Source: Paenibacillus hamazuiensis (GTDB taxonomy: Bacteria; Bacillota; Bacilli; Paenibacillales; NBRC-103111). From it: DNA of 64,000 nucleotides. The notes below the pieces were generated by a model. It ran no database searches. It saw only the letters and a list, made by a program, of their open reading frames with translations, and had not been told where the DNA came from. Where the stretch lies: contig NZ_JALRMO010000001.1 in NCBI RefSeq assembly GCF_023276405.1, positions 1,116,001 to 1,180,000 of the forward strand. Direction: 5' to 3'. The position numbers were made by a program, and so were the translations under genes. Positions 39,290-49,220 of this stretch are shown piece by piece (the stretch's first letter is position 1; each line of letters begins with the position of its first letter).

Positions 39290-41341
39290 CTATACGGTAA
39301 CGAGCTTCTTCTCTTCAACCGAAGCGGCGGCGTTTCCATCGCTTCCTTGACCGCCGGCAGGGGCAGGCTTCGACGTCGCCGCCGGGGCATTGCCGGGCGC
39401 CGCTTCCGAGCCCGCTCCGGTGGCTGCGCCTTGGCCGCCCTCAGCGTCGTCGCCTGCATCTCCGGCTCCGGCCGCTATGCCGGGCACCGAGCCGGCCTCC
39501 GCCGCTGACGCCTCGCCGCCGGCTTCGACCCCCGCCGTCCGCCCACGCGTTAAGCCGTGCGCCGGCTCGAGCGGCCCGCCCGGCTGCGCGGCGTCCGCCA
39601 CGCCGGCTGCCGCTCCGGCGCCTCCGCCGGCATCAAGCTCCGCGTCGTCGATGCGGAACATGCCGATCTCGCGGAACAGCTTCTGCGAGAGCAGGCTGAT
39701 ATCGTCCGCCTCGGAAACGATCCGCCGGATCGACGCGTCCTGCGTCAGCGAAGCGGAGTTCACCTCCTCGACGCCGGCGGCCGTTTCTTCCGCGATGGAA
39801 GCTACGAACTGCACCGACTCCACGAGCGTCCCGTTTTTTTGCTTGGCGAACGCGATTTTTTCATGGATATGCCGGATATGGCCGCTCAGCTCGTCCACCG
39901 AGATGCGGATCGCATCGAAAGCCGTTTTCGTTTCATCCAGCTTGCCGGACTGCACGCTCATCATGCCGCGGGCGGACTGGAGTCCGTCCTGCAGCTCGAC
40001 GATGCGGCTTTCCAGCGAGCCGATAATGTCTTCCACCATCTTCGCGGAACGGGACGTTTGCGCGGAAAGCCCCCGCACCTCATCGGCGATGACCATAAAG
40101 CCTTTGCCGTGCACTCCGGCGCGCGCCGCTTCAATAGAAGCGTTTAACGACAGCACGTTCGTTTGCGTGGAAATTTCCTGAATCGACGCGATGATACGCC
40201 CGATCTGCCGCGAGCTTTCCTGCAGCGAATCCATCGCGGACAGCACGGCAGCGAAAACGGCTTGCGACTCGGCCGCCGCCGCTTGCAGCGAATCCATCGC
40301 GCGGACGCCGTTTTCCGTGTTGCCAGCGGCCGCGGAGCTGGCCTCGCGCATTGCTCCGGCGGCTCCGGAAATGACGTCCATTTCCTGCTGCAGCTCGGCG
40401 ATGATATAGACGCTTTTTTCAGAATGGGCGGCCTGCTCGCCCGCTCCTTGCGATATTTCCTCAATCGCCCGCACGATTTCGGAATTGGCTGCGGCCGTCT
40501 CGTCCGCGAACCCGTGGAATGTGCGCGCATGGTCCGACAATGAAGCGGCGATCGCCTGCGTATTCGCCAGCATGTCGCGGACTCGTTCGATCATATGGTC
40601 GAAGCTGGCGCTGAGCTCGCCGAGCTCGTCCTTCGAGCGGCTGCCGATCGTATGGCGCAAATCGCCTTCCGCAATGCGCCTTACGGCATGCTGAATGCGT
40701 CCGATCGGCTTCGTGAACGAGCGGATCAAGGTGAAAGCGATGATGCCGGCCGCGACGAACACAAGCCCGAAAGCGGTGATCATGACCGTCGCCGTGCGGC
40801 TGAGCAGCGTCTGCGAGCTTTCGATCGCCGCCTGCGCCTCGCCCGAATAGACGACGTAAAAATTGTCGACATAGGTAAAAATTTGATCCTTTTGCTTTTG
40901 CGACTCGTTGTACAAATACTCCATATTCTTGTCCATATCCGCGGGCGGCAGCTTGTTTTCCTGAACGAGCTTCGCCGCGACGTCGAACGTGTTCGCATAA
41001 TCGACGGTCAGCGAAATCAGCTTGCTGCGCCAGGCGATCTGATCGGGCGTCGTCGCGGTATCGCCGATCCGCTTGATCATTTGGTCGAATTGCTTTCGTT
41101 TTTCATTATATATAGGTATGTATTCGACTTTCTTGGAAATTTCCAGCCCCGACGCTATGACGTTAAGCTCCTGTACCGTCTCCTTAAGCTCTAAAGCCAT
41201 CTGCTTAAGCTCGACTTTTTCGTTTTGAAACATAAGCTGAGCTTGAATCGCCTCCACCTGGTTCAGGTTAAACAAGGCGACACACAGGAAAGCGGCCAGC
41301 ATTCCGGCAAAACCCGCGATCAGCTTCATTTTTAACGACAT
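39290..41341 (-). CDS. Methyl-accepting chemotaxis protein with long low-complexity tail
   Basis: 683 residues. A first membrane helix (about 8-28), an extracellular helical sensor, a second helix (about 185-207) and HAMP (about 208-265) precede a cytoplasmic signalling hairpin with the CheA/CheW tip, seen as QTNVLSLNASIEAARAG and HGKGFMVIADEVR. Such receptors bias flagellar rotation. After about residue 555 comes a roughly 125-residue tail made mostly of Gly and Ala with Glu and Pro, ending EEKKLVTV. It is not the NWETF-type methyltransferase tether. ATG 41341 has GGAGGGG upstream. No chemotaxis genes are nearby. Confidence 0.9.
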   Translation of the reverse strand: MSLKMKLIAGFAGMLAAFLCVALFNLNQVEAIQAQLMFQNEKVELKQMALELKETVQELNVIASGLEISKKVEYIPIYNEKRKQFDQMIKRIGDTATTPDQIAWRSKLISLTVDYANTFDVAAKLVQENKLPPADMDKNMEYLYNESQKQKDQIFTYVDNFYVVYSGEAQAAIESSQTLLSRTATVMITAFGLVFVAAGIIAFTLIRSFTKPIGRIQHAVRRIAEGDLRHTIGSRSKDELGELSASFDHMIERVRDMLANTQAIAASLSDHARTFHGFADETAAANSEIVRAIEEISQGAGEQAAHSEKSVYIIAELQQEMDVISGAAGAMREASSAAAGNTENGVRAMDSLQAAAAESQAVFAAVLSAMDSLQESSRQIGRIIASIQEISTQTNVLSLNASIEAARAGVHGKGFMVIADEVRGLSAQTSRSAKMVEDIIGSLESRIVELQDGLQSARGMMSVQSGKLDETKTAFDAIRISVDELSGHIRHIHEKIAFAKQKNGTLVESVQFVASIAEETAAGVEEVNSASLTQDASIRRIVSEADDISLLSQKLFREIGMFRIDDAELDAGGGAGAAAGVADAAQPGGPLEPAHGLTRGRTAGVEAGGEASAAEAGSVPGIAAGAGDAGDDAEGGQGAATGAGSEAAPGNAPAATSKPAPAGGQGSDGNAAASVEEKKLVTV

Positions 41342-41472
41342 CAATTGCCCCTCCCATTCGGCGTATATTATTTATCTACAAAATTACTCTACATTCTACA
41401 TATTAAGAAAATAATATTAAAAGAAGAGATGTGTTGTGTTAAGGAAATGTCAAAATTCGCCACAATAAAACT

Positions 41473-41526
41473 TTTACATTCCGTTAACGAAGAGTGGGCG
41501 CAGAGTTAACAAAACGCTGTTACGAT
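41473..41526 (+). promoter_or_regulatory. PhoP-box promoter of pstS
   Basis: TT-N-ACA-like half-sites on an 11-base period, TTTACA (41473), TTAACG (41484) and TTAACA (41506), stand before TACGAT (41521), a plausible -10. This is the layout of PhoP-activated promoters in Bacillus, where phosphate starvation turns on the pst operon. Confidence 0.75.
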
Positions 41527-42477: not shown

Positions 42478-42491
42478 CATCGCAGTGCATG

Positions 42492-42522
42492 AAAAGCTGT
42501 TCTCCCAAGGACAGCTTTTCTT
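42492..42522 (+). terminator. Terminator after pstS and insertion target of the intron
   Basis: AAAAGCTGT pairs with ACAGCTTTT around TCTCCCAAGG and continues CTT before the intron begins with GTGCG. Class C group II introns insert after such hairpins. Confidence 0.9.
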
Positions 42523-44577
42523 GTGCGCTTGGCAGCGCATCGTACTAACGGGTGAAAGTCCCGAGCGCACCGCGGGGTGGCGGAAGCGCATAGCCGACTG
42601 GTAGTGCTCTGGCCGTAAGGGAGGGTGCGGAGGATCAGAAGGCAAAACCCGGAACAGGCGGCATGAACCATGTTGGCTGGCGAAGCCGGATAACCCTGCA
42701 AGAGAAGGGGACGTCCTATACCACCATAGGCTTCGAAAGTTAGGAGGACTGGATTCGGGGGAAAGACGATGACGTGACCCAAGGAGGGCTTATCGTCTTC
42801 CGCATAGCGGTAAACTCTTTTCAAGGCTTATAGGGCTAAGACAGAATGATGGATGGTGAGCAGTCATACGAAGGGATAGTAGTGAGAAAGCTTGCCGGAA
42901 AAGCCGCAATGGCAAGTGAACCGACACCAACGTTGTCGGTGCAAGCTTAGACCCAAAAGGCAAAGACTTGGTGCGAAGCCCGGAACCGTGGAAGAAAAGC
43001 ATAACCACCTAGGAAGCCGTCATGTGCCAGACAGAAGCCGGGGAGCCAAGAAGAGCGAAGAGCCGGGGCTGAACAAAAGGGTAGGCCGTCTGGGGCGGAG
43101 TACCGAAGGGGAACCGGAAAGGCTGAAAGATTAGCTATACGTCCGGAAACTGAAAGGGAAGGAACACGAGACATGAAGGAAGGAAAAGGAGAGGTAGGCT
43201 TTCGTGAGGGAGTAGAAGTCCCGAGAAAACGCAGATGGCACAGCCTCATCGACAAGATATGGGCGATGCCGAACCTTGAGGAGGCATTCCGGGAGGTCAA
43301 GCGCAACCGGGGAGCAGCGGGAGTAGACGGAGTGACCATAAAGGTATTCGAGAGTGAACTGGAGCGTAACTTAAGAACGCTTCAGCAGGAGCTGCGGGCG
43401 AAGGCATACAAGCCGATGCCGGTCAGGCGCATGTACATTTCCAAGGAAAATGGGGGTCAAAGGCCGCTCGGGATACCCGCAATTCGCGATCGCGTAGTAC
43501 AGGCGGCGACCCGCCGAATCCTCGAACCGATTTACGAGGCGACATTTATGGAGTGTAGTTTTGGGTTTCGCCCGGGACGCAGTGCACACATGGCGCTGGA
43601 GAACATTCGGAAAGATCTCATGGATGGATACGTTTATGTGATCGACGCCGACCTGAAATCGTATTTCGATCTCATTCCACATGACAAGTTGCTTAAGGCC
43701 GTCAAGGAAGAAGTGGTGGATGGTAGTGTCCTAAAGCTCATAGAAAGCTTCTTAAAGTCCGGAGTCATGGAGAACGGAAGTTTTCACCTGAACGAGCAAG
43801 GAAGTCCACAGGGTGGGGTTATTAGTCCGCTTTTGGCGAATATCTACCTAAACCCGCTGGATAAGCTCATGACTGAACGGAAGCACCGTATAACACGGTA
43901 CGCCGATGATTTTGTGATCTGCTGCAAATCCCAAAAGGGGGCAGAGAGGGTACTCCAAGGTGTTATTCGTCTACTGGAACAAGAGCTTGGGCTCAAAGTA
44001 CACCCGGAGAAAACCAAGATCGTGAACAACTTGGAACAGTCCTTTATGTTCCTAGGTCATGAGTTTAAACCGGGATTTTGGGTTACTCCATCCTCGAAAG
44101 CCAAACAGAAATTTAAAGAACGCGTGAAAGCAATTACGCGGCGGAACCAAACGGTGAATGTGGAACAGCTGATCCGAAAGAAGTTGAATCCATATTTACG
44201 TGGATGGGGTAGCTATTTTGGCTGGGGCAACGTAGGAAGTCTGATGAGAGAGTACGATGCATGGATAAGGAGAAGGCTCCGGATGGTACAGTTGCGGAGC
44301 TGGAAAAAGCCGAAGAACTTCTACAGGGCACTAAGAAAGAATAAGTGGAGGGGAGAGCTTCCCAAGATGCGTATGTTCGCATGGAGAAGCTCGCTATCCA
44401 AGCCAGCCAGTGTTGCAATGCCAAACGATTGGTTCAGAGAAAGAGGTCTCGTTTTTCTCGTAGACATCTATAATGAACATCATCCCCAGCGGGGATAAGC
44501 GCGGAGGAGCCGGATGCGATGACCCGCACGTCCGGTTCTGTGAGAGGCCCATGAATTCATTCATGGGCCTACTCGAT
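42523..44577 (+). mobile_element. Group IIC intron
   Basis: The 5' end GTGCG (42523) fits the GUGYG consensus and follows the T-tract of an intrinsic terminator, the hallmark target of class C. About 650 bases of structured RNA precede the ORF at 43173-44498. Domain V is seen around 44506-44540 (stem GAGCCGGA / TCCGGTTC), and domain VI is GGCCCATGAAT / ATTCATGGGCC with an unpaired A at 44571, seven bases from the proposed 3' end AT at 44577. All parts look intact, so it may still splice and move. The 3' boundary is inferred. Confidence 0.88.
43173..44498 (+). CDS. Group IIC intron reverse transcriptase/maturase
   Basis: 441 residues. Reverse transcriptase blocks are in order: GAAGVDGVTIKVFE, RPLGIPAIRDRVVQ, SFGFRPGRSAHMAL, IDADLKSYFDLI, GSPQGGVISPLLANIYL, the catalytic RYADDFVICC (YADD) and GLKVHPEKTKI. 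A maturase (X) domain follows, with NPYLRGWGSYFGW. No HNH endonuclease domain is attached, which fits class C. The protein helps its own intron fold and splice, and copies it into new DNA targets. The ATG follows AAGGAAC. It lies in domain IV of the intron inside the pst operon. Confidence 0.93.
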   Translation: MKEGKGEVGFREGVEVPRKRRWHSLIDKIWAMPNLEEAFREVKRNRGAAGVDGVTIKVFESELERNLRTLQQELRAKAYKPMPVRRMYISKENGGQRPLGIPAIRDRVVQAATRRILEPIYEATFMECSFGFRPGRSAHMALENIRKDLMDGYVYVIDADLKSYFDLIPHDKLLKAVKEEVVDGSVLKLIESFLKSGVMENGSFHLNEQGSPQGGVISPLLANIYLNPLDKLMTERKHRITRYADDFVICCKSQKGAERVLQGVIRLLEQELGLKVHPEKTKIVNNLEQSFMFLGHEFKPGFWVTPSSKAKQKFKERVKAITRRNQTVNVEQLIRKKLNPYLRGWGSYFGWGNVGSLMREYDAWIRRRLRMVQLRSWKKPKNFYRALRKNKWRGELPKMRMFAWRSSLSKPASVAMPNDWFRERGLVFLVDIYNEHHPQRG

Positions 44578-44607
44578 TTTTTCGACATTTTCCGCCTTTC
44601 ATTAATT

Positions 44608-44661
44608 TTTACATTGGCTTAACAATTCGAACGTTTTCTTCTTACAAAAGTTTAATATACT
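44608..44661 (+). promoter_or_regulatory. Second Pho box, in front of pstC
   Basis: TTTACA (44608), TTAACA (44619) and CTTACA (44641) fall on an 11-base grid (the position at 44630 is weak), and TATACT (44656) is a possible -10. The block lies after the intron and 50 bases before the pstC start, so pstC can be transcribed without reading through the terminator and intron. Confidence 0.65.
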
Positions 44662-44710: not shown

Positions 44711-45643
44711 GTGGAAGAAACACTTGCCGGAAACGTAACGAACAAAAAGGAAAAGAAATCGATCCTCACCAGGTGGAGCCGCGTGCAAAACCGGACGGAC
44801 GATTTGATGCGCCTTGTATTTGTCGGCAGTGCGGTGCTCGTTTCCGCGATCATCTTTTCCGTGATGATTTTTGTCGGCATGCAGGGGGTAAAAACGTTCC
44901 AGGGCGTAAGCCCGATGGAATTTTTCTTCTCGACCGACTGGACCCCGAGCAAAGATCAATTCGGAGCGTTTTCCTTCTTATACAGCACGATGCTGCTTAC
45001 GCTGCTTTCTGTCGTATTATCGGTGCCTTTGGCGCTTTCGGGAGCTATTTTCATGGCGAAAATCGCGCCGAACTGGATGCGGGAAATTTTGCGTCCGGCG
45101 ACCGATCTGTTCGTCGGCATTCCTTCGGTCGTCTACGGATTGATCGGATTGACCGTCATCGTGCCGTTTTTGGCCAAGTTCAACGATGGCCTCGGTTACG
45201 GCATACTGCCTGCGGCGATCATTTTGGCGATCATGATTTTGCCGACGATTTTGTCGATTTCCGAAGATGCGATCCGCGCGCTGCCGCCGCGATTTGAAGA
45301 GGCGTCGCTGGCGCTCGGCGCAACGCGCTGGCAGACGATTTGGCGGGTGCTGCTGCCGGCGGCGCGTCCGGGAATACTGACGGGTATCATCCTCGGCATG
45401 GGCCGGGCGATTGGCGAAACGATGGCGGTATTTATGGTCATCGGGAACTCGCCGCAAATGCCGGAATCGCTGCTCGATTCCACGACGGTGCTGACGACGG
45501 CGATTGTAAAGGACATGGGTAATACGCACTACGGCTCGACCTGGAACAACGCGTTGTACCTGATGGCGCTGCTTCTGCTGCTGATCTCGCTGTCGCTTAT
45601 TCTCATCATCCGCATCGTCGCCAAAAGGAGTGAACTGAAATGA
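44711..45643 (+). CDS. pstC: Phosphate ABC transporter permease PstC
   Basis: 310 residues with about six membrane helices. The N-terminus is cytoplasmic and basic. The conserved permease loop is EEASLALGATRWQTIWRVLLP (EAA motif), followed by GRAIGETMAV. It pairs with PstA to form the phosphate channel. The start is GTG 44711, preceded by AAGAGGGGG. Its last codon and the next ATG overlap (ATGA). It is the first gene after the intron and has its own Pho box. Confidence 0.95.
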   Translation: MEETLAGNVTNKKEKKSILTRWSRVQNRTDDLMRLVFVGSAVLVSAIIFSVMIFVGMQGVKTFQGVSPMEFFFSTDWTPSKDQFGAFSFLYSTMLLTLLSVVLSVPLALSGAIFMAKIAPNWMREILRPATDLFVGIPSVVYGLIGLTVIVPFLAKFNDGLGYGILPAAIILAIMILPTILSISEDAIRALPPRFEEASLALGATRWQTIWRVLLPAARPGILTGIILGMGRAIGETMAVFMVIGNSPQMPESLLDSTTVLTTAIVKDMGNTHYGSTWNNALYLMALLLLLISLSLILIIRIVAKRSELK

Positions 45644-46497
45644 CCAGCAAACGCGCCGACCGGCTTGCAACCGGATTTTTCTGGGCAACAGGCTTTACGA
45701 TTATATTGCTTCTCTTATGGTTTCTTATACGCATTCTGGGGGACGGATTGCCGGTATTGTCATGGAAATTCATCACCGGCAAACCTCAGGAGATTATGGC
45801 CGGCGGCGGGGTAGGGCCGCAGCTGTTCAACTCTTTCTACATTTTGTTCCTTTCGCTGCTGTTTTCGCTGCCGATCGGAATCGGGGCGGGCGTTTACCTG
45901 GCCATCTATGCGAAAAAAAACCGGTTCACCGATGTGATCCGGATCTCGGTCGAAGCATTGTCTTCCGTTCCTTCCATCGTATTCGGGCTGTTCGGCTACC
46001 TGATTTTCGCCAACTTGCTCGGGCTTAAGTTCTCCATCCTCGGCGGCGCCGCTACGCTATCGCTGCTGAATTTGCCGGTGCTCGTCCGCGTGACGGAGGA
46101 AGCGCTCCGCTCGGTGCCGGAGTCGTATTGGGAAGCGTCGCTTGCGCTCGGCTCGACGCGCTGGCAGGCGATTCGCAAGGTGCTGCTGCCGGCGGCCATG
46201 CCGAGCCTGATCACGGGAATTACGCTGGTCGCCGGCCGGGCGCTCGGGGAATCCGCGATTTTGATCTATACGGCAGGTTTGTCCGTATCGAGATTTTTCC
46301 CGGACTGGAATCCTCTGACGATGGGGGAAACGTTGTCCGTTCACTTGTGGTACGTGCAATCCGAGGCGATCGTACCTGACGCCAAGCAGATTGCCAAGGG
46401 CAGCGCAGCGCTCCTGCTGATCGTCGTCCTGATCTTTAACCTGCTGATCGGCGTGCCGAGCCGACTGCTGCAAAAACGACTTTCCGGGGGGAAATAA
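45640..46497 (+). CDS. pstA: Phosphate ABC transporter permease PstA
   Basis: 285 residues with six predicted helices. It has the family segments [24 protein letters not shown] and the EAA loop [20 protein letters not shown], then [10 protein letters not shown]. It partners PstC as the second channel half. The ATG overlaps the pstC stop by four bases, which couples their translation and balances the two subunits. pstB follows after two bases. Confidence 0.95.
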
Positions 46498-46499
46498 CC

Positions 46500-47270
46500 G
46501 TGACGACTACAGCAACCAAGCATAAAATCAAAGTGGAGCAACTAAATTTATATTATGGGGACAACCATGCGCTTCATGATATCGATCTGAACATCGAAAG
46601 CAATCATATCGTGGCGCTGATCGGTCCGTCGGGCTGCGGCAAATCGACGTTTCTGCGGACGCTGAACCGGATGAACGATCTGATCGACAACGTACGGATT
46701 ACGGGCAATATTTTTGTCGACGGTCAAAATATTTACGATTCCCAGGCGGACGTCGTCTCCTTGCGCAAAAGGGTCGGCATGGTGTTTCAGCGGCCGAACC
46801 CGTTTCCGATGAGCATTTACGACAACATCGCCTACGGACCGCGCATCCACGGCACGAAAAAGAAATCGGTGCTCGACGACATCGTCGAACGGAGCCTGAA
46901 GCAGGCCGCTTTGTGGGATGAAGTGAAGGACCGGCTGAACAAGTCCGCACTCGGGCTTTCCGGCGGTCAGCAGCAGCGGCTGTGCATTGCCAGACTGCTC
47001 GCCGTGGAGCCGGATGTGCTGCTGATGGACGAACCGACGTCGGCGCTCGATCCGATTTCGACGCTGAAGGTCGAGGAGTTGACGCAAACGCTGAAGGACA
47101 AATACACGATCATCATCGTGACGCACAACATGCAGCAGGCGGCACGGATTTCGGACTACACGTCCTTTTTCCTCAACGGCATTTTGGTGGAAACCGATAA
47201 AACCGATAAAATTTTCACAAACCCGACCGACCAAAGAACGGAAGATTACATCACCGGACGTTTCGGCTAG
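46500..47270 (+). CDS. pstB: Phosphate ABC transporter ATP-binding protein PstB
   Basis: 256 residues. Walker A is [19 protein letters not shown], the signature is [16 protein letters not shown] and Walker B is [13 protein letters not shown], followed by the switch [15 protein letters not shown]. PstB has the usual extra loop after the Q-loop ([18 protein letters not shown]). It powers phosphate import by PstC and PstA. The start is GTG 46500, with CGGGGGG at eight bases. Only a short gap separates it from pstA, and phoU follows. Confidence 0.96.
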
Positions 47271-47300
47271 GACTAATCATGCGCACAAGGGGCTGAATTC

Positions 47301-47960
47301 ATGGACAATCGATTAAACTTTCATCATTCTCTGGAGGAGCTGCAAAGCGATTTGCTGGACATGGGCTCTTCCGTAGAGCAAGCGATTCACTCTGCCGTCG
47401 AATCGCTGAGCCGGCTTGACGAGCAGATGGCTCGCCGGACGATCGAAAACGACGACGCCATCGACGCGGCGATGCTGCAGATCGAGGAGCGCTGCCTGCG
47501 GCTTATCGCACTGCAGCAGCCGATGGCGAGCGATCTGCGCGTGATCGGCATGGTCATCAAAATCGCGACGGATCTGGAACGCATTGCCGACCACGCTGTG
47601 GACATCGCCAAAATCGCGATTCGCCTCACGGGCGAGGAGCTCGTAAAGCCGCTGATCGACATCCCGCGCATCGCGGAAATGGTGAAAGAGATGCTGAAGG
47701 AAAGCCTCCTCGCATATACGGAACGGAACGTGCACCGCGCCGCGGCGCTGGCGGAAAAAGACGACGAGGTCGACAAGCTGTACAGCACGGTGCTGAGCGA
47801 CATCGTCGGCATGATGTCCACGGATTTGGCCCGCAACCGCCAATTGTCCAGCCTGATGCTGGTCGCCCATTTCCTCGAACGCGTCGCCGACCACACCACC
47901 AACATCGGCGAAGGCGTCATCTACATGGTGACCGGCAAGCGAAAAGATTTGAATATTTGA
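47301..47960 (+). CDS. phoU: Phosphate-signalling protein PhoU
   Basis: 219 residues, two copies of the PhoU three-helix module. The metal-binding motifs appear as DLERIADHAVDIAK in the first and FLERVADHTTNIGEG in the second, both E-R-x-A-D-H. PhoU links the Pst transporter to the PhoR kinase and lowers signalling when phosphate is plentiful. The start ATG 47301 has AAGGGGC upstream. It closes the pst operon and is followed by a terminator. Confidence 0.94.
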   Translation: MDNRLNFHHSLEELQSDLLDMGSSVEQAIHSAVESLSRLDEQMARRTIENDDAIDAAMLQIEERCLRLIALQQPMASDLRVIGMVIKIATDLERIADHAVDIAKIAIRLTGEELVKPLIDIPRIAEMVKEMLKESLLAYTERNVHRAAALAEKDDEVDKLYSTVLSDIVGMMSTDLARNRQLSSLMLVAHFLERVADHTTNIGEGVIYMVTGKRKDLNI

Positions 47961-47973
47961 TCTATGCCGAAAA

Positions 47974-48000
47974 AAGGAGTCCCTGCCGGGGCTCTTTTTG
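47974..48000 (+). terminator. Terminator of the pst-phoU operon
   Basis: GGAGTCCC pairs with GGGGCTC and is followed by TTTTTGG just after phoU. Confidence 0.75.
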
Positions 48001-48075
48001 GCTTTTTGGGAAAAATATCTCGAGCCGGTGGATGGGGCGGGGATATGGAGCGGCTGCCAAGTCAGAAGTGAGGCA

Positions 48076-48373
48076 CGGCAGACGTAGGAGCTGCGCAAGC
48101 TGGTCCACGCCCGGCAAGGCGCGAGGAAGAGGCACGTATTCGCTCCTATGGCGTCGCACCAAATAGTGAAGCGCGGCAGTCGTAGGAGCTGCGGAAGCAG
48201 GTCCACGCCCGGCAAGGCGCGAGGAAGAGGCACGTACCCGCACTCCTATGGCATCGCACCAAATAGTGAAGCGCGGCAGTCGTAGGAGCTGCGGAAGCAG
48301 GTCCACGCCCGGCAAGGCGCGAGGAAGAAGCACGTACCCTCGCTCCTATGGCGTCGCGCCAAACGTACAGCGT
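48076..48373 (+). repeat. Tandem array of three about 98-100 bp units with hairpins
   Basis: Units start at 48076, 48174 and 48274 with CGGCAG. Each has a hairpin GGAGCTGC / GCAGGTCC and a small one GCC-CGGCAA-GGC, followed by GAGGAAGAGGCACGTA and CGCTCC. The ending AGGCACG then CGCTCC is shared with the 96-bp units at 34328, although the hairpins differ. Confidence 0.85.
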
Positions 48374-48515
48374 GTCCGGCGTGGGATTTATTGCCAAACA
48401 GCAATAAATCCATGCCGGACAAACGCGCACTAGAAGCGAGCAACCACGCGAACCGGGCGGGTCCAGGGCGCCCGAGCGCCTGGGGTCCCCCCAGTGGGGG
48501 GATTTAGGGGGGAGG
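48374..48515 (+). repeat. Structured repeat, copy C, ending the second array
   Basis: The hairpin GTCCGGC-n-GGATTTATTGC / GCAATAAATCC-AT-GCCGGAC (48374-48420) is followed by AAACGCG, TAGAAGCGAGCAA, GCGGGTCCAGGGCGC / GCGCCTGG and CCCCCCAGTGGGGGG, then ATTTAGGGGGG. It ends beside the promoter of the chromate transporter genes. Confidence 0.85.
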
Positions 48516-48519
48516 GGAG

Positions 48520-48548
48520 GGGACATACGAAAAAAAGTATCGTATAAT
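48520..48548 (+). promoter_or_regulatory. Promoter of the paired chromate transporter genes
   Basis: GGGACA (48520-48525) is 17 bases from a perfect TATAAT (48543-48548), 34 bases before the start codon. Confidence 0.55.
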
Positions 48549-48581
48549 GAAAACAATTTCAACGGAGGGGCGGAGTTGCGC

Positions 48582-49220
48582 ATGACATGGCGGTGGGGAA
48601 TGCTGGCCTCCATTTTTTGGGCTTTTTTCAAGATGGGACCGGTGACGTTCGGAGGAGGTTATGCGATGCTTCCTGTCATAGAACGCGAAGTGGTCGGTAA
48701 CAAGGGCTGGGTCGAGGAAGAGGAGATGGCGGACATCGTATCGATCGCAGGCTCAGCTCCCGGGGGGATCGGCGTAAATACCGCCGCTTTTATCGGATAT
48801 CGGCTGTGCGGCATCCCGGGGGCAACCGCTGCGGTGCTTGGCATCGGGCTGCCGACATTTTTGATCATCTTCGCGTTCAGCTTGGTGCTTGGGCTCATCC
48901 GCGACAATCCGCTTGTCGACTCGGCATTCAAAGGCATTCATGCGGCTATTGTCGCCTTAATCGCCGTTGCCGCTTACAAGATGGGACGCACCGCGATACA
49001 GGATAAGACCACGCTGGTGACGGCTATCGCGACGGTACTGGTGCTCGTTGATTTTCACATTCATCCGATGCTTTTAATCATCGGTGGTTTGTTTCTAGGC
49101 ATCGTGCTCGTGCGGGTTAAAGAGCATTGGGGAATGCCTGTGCCGCTTGAAACGCTGCCGCAGACGGATCTGCATGGCGACTACAGGCAATTGGAAAATT
49201 ATTACGGTGACGGCATATAA
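48582..49220 (+). CDS. Chromate transporter, first half of a paired CHR system
   Basis: 212 residues holding one CHR domain: PVTFGGGYAMLPVIEREVV, DIVSIAGSAPGGIGVNTAAF and GIPGATAAVLGIGLPTF. Long ChrA proteins have two such domains in one chain; here they are split in two genes, which is a known short-chain form. The pair forms an exporter for chromate or, in some cases, sulfate. ATG 48582 has CGGAG six bases upstream. The partner is 139 bases downstream. Confidence 0.88.
   Translation: MTWRWGMLASIFWAFFKMGPVTFGGGYAMLPVIEREVVGNKGWVEEEEMADIVSIAGSAPGGIGVNTAAFIGYRLCGIPGATAAVLGIGLPTFLIIFAFSLVLGLIRDNPLVDSAFKGIHAAIVALIAVAAYKMGRTAIQDKTTLVTAIATVLVLVDFHIHPMLLIIGGLFLGIVLVRVKEHWGMPVPLETLPQTDLHGDYRQLENYYGDGI

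Follow-up and report, generated by a model that had tools for sequence, protein, structure and literature searches.

The analysis of a 64-kb stretch of the Paenibacillus hamazuiensis genome (the window) indicated that a group IIC intron has, in all probability, been inserted at the seam between two Pho transcription units, pstS and pstCAB-phoU. The gene row in the window was pstS, pstC, pstA, pstB and phoU, and the intron occupied the gap between the first two genes (Table 1). The initial annotation had described an intact group IIC intron between the pstS terminator and a Pho box in front of pstC, and all of these elements (the RF02001 and RF00029 matches, the IEP, the hairpin and the box) were recovered. 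A terminator-like hairpin was located 3' of phoU, from position 47972. Minus-strand frames with a repeated peptide, containing for example SRLAGRGPASAAPTTAALHYLV, were also observed behind phoU (47960-48640), which suggests an array of direct DNA repeats in this region.

Table 1. Positions of the pst genes, the intron and the predicted control elements in the window.
Feature	Position	Strand	Remarks
Predicted pstS Pho-box promoter	41473..41526	+	TTTACA 41473, TTAACG 41484, degenerate unit 41495, TTAACA 41506, -10 TACGAT 41521-41526
pstS, phosphate-binding lipoprotein, 303 aa	41566..42477	+	TIGR02136, E 3.6e-69, above cut-off
pstS intrinsic terminator, 13-bp hairpin and left part of T-tract	42491..42522	+	End is the 5' exon boundary
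Group IIC intron, complete, 2055 bp	42523..44577	+	Rfam matches; edges from identical copies
EBS1 loop AAGAG (inferred)	42700..42704	+	Pairs with IBS1 (YTYTT-type) of insertion sites
IEP, intron-encoded reverse transcriptase/maturase, 441 aa, YADD motif	43173..44498	+	TIGR04416, E 2.3e-128; PF00078; PF08388
Intron domains V-VI	44505..44577	+	RF00029, 45.2 bits (Rfam)
3' exon, rest of interrupted pstS T-tract, TTTTTCG	44578..44584	+	IBS3 = T
Predicted pstC Pho-box promoter	44608..44661	+	TTTACA 44608, TTAACA 44619, AACGTT 44630, CTTACA 44641, -10 TATACT 44656-44661
pstC permease, GTG start	44711..45643	+	TIGR02138, E 6.4e-86
pstA, pstB, phoU	45640..47960	+	45640-46497, 46500-47270, 47301-47960; tight spacing

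The 5' end of the intron, GTGCGCTTGGCA, was set at 42523 because 14 letter-identical copies, lying in unrelated flanks, share this edge, and the 3' end, CTACTCGAT, was found at 44577; the splice junction positions proposed earlier (42522/44578) were therefore exact. Domains I-IV were recognized by the Rfam model RF02001 (42609-42773, 59.2 bits). When domains V and VI were folded (-42.5 kcal/mol), a single bulged A appeared at 44571, the seventh base from the 3' end; this is the predicted branch-point, and its presence as the only bulge in domain VI makes the ribozyme look intact. The IEP carried the RVT_1 (PF00078) and GIIM (PF08388, maturase domain X) domains, and no match to an endonuclease domain was obtained in the profile search of its 441 aa. 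The nearest relatives found for it were 67-72% identical, and its best PDB matches included 7uim and the GsI-IIC RT 6ar1. The homology to GsI-IIC RT and other IIC RTs (6ar1, 7uim, 5hhj and 5hhl) extended over residues 24-435 of 441 (E 1e-83 to 1e-82), but the protein is distinct in sequence from those structures.

A total of 15 copies of the intron, including that of the pstS-pstC gap, were found in the 8.8-Mb genome, and 14 of them were letter-identical, which implies recent mobility. The remaining copy (L015, G000:C1:721184-723239) carried a one-base insertion that frameshifted the IEP, although its ribozyme may remain open to mobilisation in trans. All 15 copies were placed directly behind a terminator hairpin and on the sense strand. 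At every site the EBS1 sequence AAGAG could form four or five pairs, G-U pairs allowed, with the five bases that end the 5' exon, and the first base of the 3' exon (+1) was a T; IBS3 = T was assigned from this base, whereas the EBS3 base itself was not located. Two homologous introns from family relatives and seven homologues from other Bacillales also started with GTGCGCTTGGCA; all of them stood behind T-rich tracts, and the two of the family followed clear hairpins.

The element thus showed the ribozyme domains with V/VI and a branch A, an IEP with RT and domain X that lacks an endonuclease, a site behind a terminator, and short IBS1-EBS1 and IBS3-EBS3 recognition, as is characteristic of class C, whose sites lie behind an intrinsic terminator or an attC hairpin. 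Insertion behind intrinsic terminators is a known rule for this class (PMC4424553; PMC8919778). Since 15/15 copies sit behind terminators, the choice of the target at pst is generic and no pst-specific cause for it is needed. The IIC ribozyme, the endonuclease-less IEP, the terminator-hairpin sites, the multicopy occurrence in Firmicutes and the small effect on coding sequence are all shared with described class C introns such as B.h.I1 (PMC4424553; PMC8919778), from which nothing basic differs except that the host site here is pstS. Hence, both the element and its target rule are already known, and the insertion is an ordinary one of a known kind.

Two of the copies, L001 (G000:C1:8766933) and L011 (2605789), had common junction flanks, with about 30 bp upstream and about 60 bp downstream being identical. 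This identity extended to the downstream transposase ORF, and both copies adjoined the same transposase gene; the intron therefore lies there in the terminator of an insertion sequence, which it entered twice or with which it moved. The copy L014 was found behind another copy of this transposase gene.

The pstS terminator hairpin (GAAAAGCTGTTC paired with GGACAGCTTTTC, 13 pairs) ended two bases before the intron, and the last bases of the terminator, TTCTT, constituted IBS1. The intron had been placed directly behind the T-tract in the initial annotation. It did lie immediately after the hairpin, but inside the T-tract and not after the whole of it (GCTTTTCTT^TTTTTCG). When the bases following the closing G-C pair of the stem were scored, the T-score of the pstS terminator was 2.24 with the intron and 4.79 for the empty site. 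The score was lower with the intron at all 15 sites, the value for L010 being unreliable because a sub-optimal stem was picked by the script. As the T-tract is split, the pstS terminator may be weaker than before; some pstS transcripts may run into the intron through the shortened tract, so that the separation of the two units may be incomplete.

The pstC Pho box had been described as an 11-bp-periodic array of TTTACA, TTAACA and CTTACA located about 30 bases after the intron. It was found there as four repeats at exact 11-bp steps, of which the third (AACGTT) was degenerate, followed by 9 nt and the TATACT motif; its first base was 31 nt beyond the end of the intron, which leaves 30 nt between the two. 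The box matched 18/18 positions and, with a matrix built from relatives only, reached a score of 51.9, the highest in the 64 kb; the next score was 16.3, corresponding to the pstS Pho box, and the mean was -79. Judged by these values, the pstC box is not a product of chance. Both boxes had the same 54-bp layout. A strict 54-bp pattern matched only three times in the 8.8 Mb, before pstS, before pstC and before the gene of an OmpR-type response regulator (L125, G000:C1:8492038), and the reversed control pattern gave no match in the same sequence. A sensor-kinase-like ORF was located just upstream of the response-regulator gene. Such a small set of matches is as expected for the site of a phosphate regulator. 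The pstC promoter was not picked up in a scan for the sigma-70 consensus, as would be expected of an activator-dependent promoter whose -35 is poor. The literature search yielded no account of a pair of Pho boxes at the pst locus of Paenibacillus.

A divergent Pho-box-like site (16/18) was also observed at 41453-41400 on the minus strand, facing an MCP gene (39290-41344). Its units were TTGACA, TTAACA, a degenerate one and TTAATA, followed by 9 nt and TAATAT. In the congener G001 a 16/18 site was present at the same place and in the same orientation before the MCP gene, and a phosphate-controlled chemoreceptor is possible at this locus.

Whether the Pho box was missing in intron-free relatives had been set beforehand as a test of the proposed reading, which survived it. 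The box was found before pstC in 29/29 other family genomes, one congener included, with 16-18 of 18 positions matching, and no intron was found at the pstS-pstC gap in any of these 29 genomes. The automatic search of the sequence scanned upstream of the box detected a terminator separating it from pstS in 27/29 relatives. In the two exceptions, G001 and G024, the genes are set apart by added DNA, with the terminator directly behind pstS. The pstS Pho-box layout was present in 26/29 relatives at 17/18 positions in a fixed-window scan, and also in two of the remaining three (G001 and G024) when longer stretches were used. The distances between pstC and pstA and between pstA and pstB were within about 33 nt in 28/29 relatives, the exception being L073, where the pstA alignment was broken. 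In contrast, no comparable box was detected before pstC in 29 loci from outside the family (best score 13/18), so that, in this sample, the second Pho promoter seems confined to the family.

Furthermore, the pstS-pstC gap was measured in 85 genomes in which both genes share a contig and a strand, with the first position of the PstC match taken as its end. Its median length was 237 bp, and it exceeded 1 kb in six genomes, which represent at least five separate events and five unrelated kinds of DNA. Besides the intron of P. hamazuiensis, the inserts were a DDE transposase gene (IS) in reverse orientation in the congener G001, an ArsB-like transporter gene in G024 (a name taken from reading the sequence and not from a profile), a gerA-gerC-gerB germination set in G082 (L174) and G090 (L175), and the gene of a 1951-aa SLH/phosphoesterase protein in G009 (L176). 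The pstC Pho box was kept in all six genomes, and the inserts were upstream of it. An intron was also considered at a contig break in G037, where pstS and pstC are on separate contigs, and was rejected, as an SLH-domain-like protein was encoded upstream of pstC instead; the Pho box was located behind this gene and before pstC, as in G009. The non-intron inserts cannot splice and are therefore natural tests of the need for co-transcription, suggesting that joint transcription of pstS and pstC is not required in those hosts. Gaps over 1 kb in the Pho-box genomes (6/85) and in the sampled box-less loci (0/29) did not differ significantly (Fisher p 0.34), and the large-gap cases were used as direct examples only and not as a statistical contrast.

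Taken together, these results are best explained by the following sequence of events. A recently active group IIC intron would have reverse-spliced into the pstS terminator, with the hairpin and the T-rich IBS1/IBS3 as its target. PhoP would activate the promoter before pstS, most transcripts ending at the hairpin behind this gene, and would also activate a second promoter, built in the same way, before pstC. As the insertion falls after the first unit has ended and before the second begins, it leaves the reading frames and the pstC promoter untouched, and phosphate uptake would be expected to continue. Binding of PhoP, use of the promoters, efficiency of the terminator and splicing are all predicted here from sequence. 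The proposal that the intron is tolerated because it fell where transcription stops and starts again was supported by the conservation of the box (29/29) and by the opening of the gap in 6/85 genomes, with the qualifications that the site choice is generic for class C and that the split T-tract may weaken the terminator.

The gene order, and the Pho control before pstS that is suggested here by the box, resemble the pst operon of B. subtilis, which has a phosphate-regulated promoter (Qi et al., 1997, as cited in PMC6232261). If pstS and pstC likewise formed one operon, with the hairpin acting only as a leaky attenuator or processing site and pstC expressed mostly by read-through, the intron would have to splice from the read-through transcript for normal expression. 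The lack of a comparable box before pstC in the 29 loci outside the family and the shortened T-tract of the pstS terminator would also agree with this organization. Nevertheless, it is unlikely, as a second Pho box with a -10 lies directly before pstC in this genome and has been kept in 29/29 family members, and as the relatives have retained pstC and its box in spite of unspliceable inserts in the gap (the reverse IS, the ArsB-like gene, gerABC and the 1951-aa gene). The insertion at the seam between two Pho units, which we prefer, is closer in one respect to the ABC importers of Clostridia, in which a terminator between the binding-protein and permease genes is reported to set an excess of binding protein (PMC9045158). 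By analogy, the pstS terminator would set an excess of PstS over the permease; in pst, unlike in those importers, a second promoter of the same regulon would restart transcription, rather than read-through alone supplying the permease genes.

An adaptive insertion, by which the intron would tune the PstS/PstC ratio or couple phosphate starvation to its own mobility through a weaker terminator, appears still less probable. The T-score dropped at 15/15 sites (at pstS as given above), and the intron is oriented in the sense direction downstream of a phosphate-controlled gene; however, insertion into any T-tract would mechanically produce the same weakening, and the location of the 14 identical copies behind genes of unrelated function indicates a recent burst without selection. 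Identical 2-kb copies are also a type of repeat prone to misassembly, but a misplacement of copies is extremely improbable, given that the genome is in two contigs, that every copy has a coherent terminator junction whose flanks rejoin the T-tract, and that one copy differs by an insertion. It is conceivable, albeit doubtful, that PhoP-driven transcription of pstS enters the intron through the weakened terminator, the pst copy being then a phosphate-inducible source of RNA and IEP for the 15-copy family. If this were true, nutrient stress would be linked to intron mobility.

Class C introns are said to be rarely transcribed, and this can be tested with a copy located behind a gene that is strongly inducible. 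Moreover, the insertion illustrates neatly, in a natural setting, why introns that target terminators do little harm. It also brings to light a layout of the phosphate uptake locus, shared across the family and apparently absent outside it, in which the binding protein and the permease would form two Pho units with a terminator between them. Having received an intron, an IS, an ArsB-like gene, a germination operon and a surface protein gene, the pstS-pstC gap can serve as a marker of sites at which an operon may be opened. The interest of the locus rests on this conserved split-operon design and on the repeated invasion of its seam.
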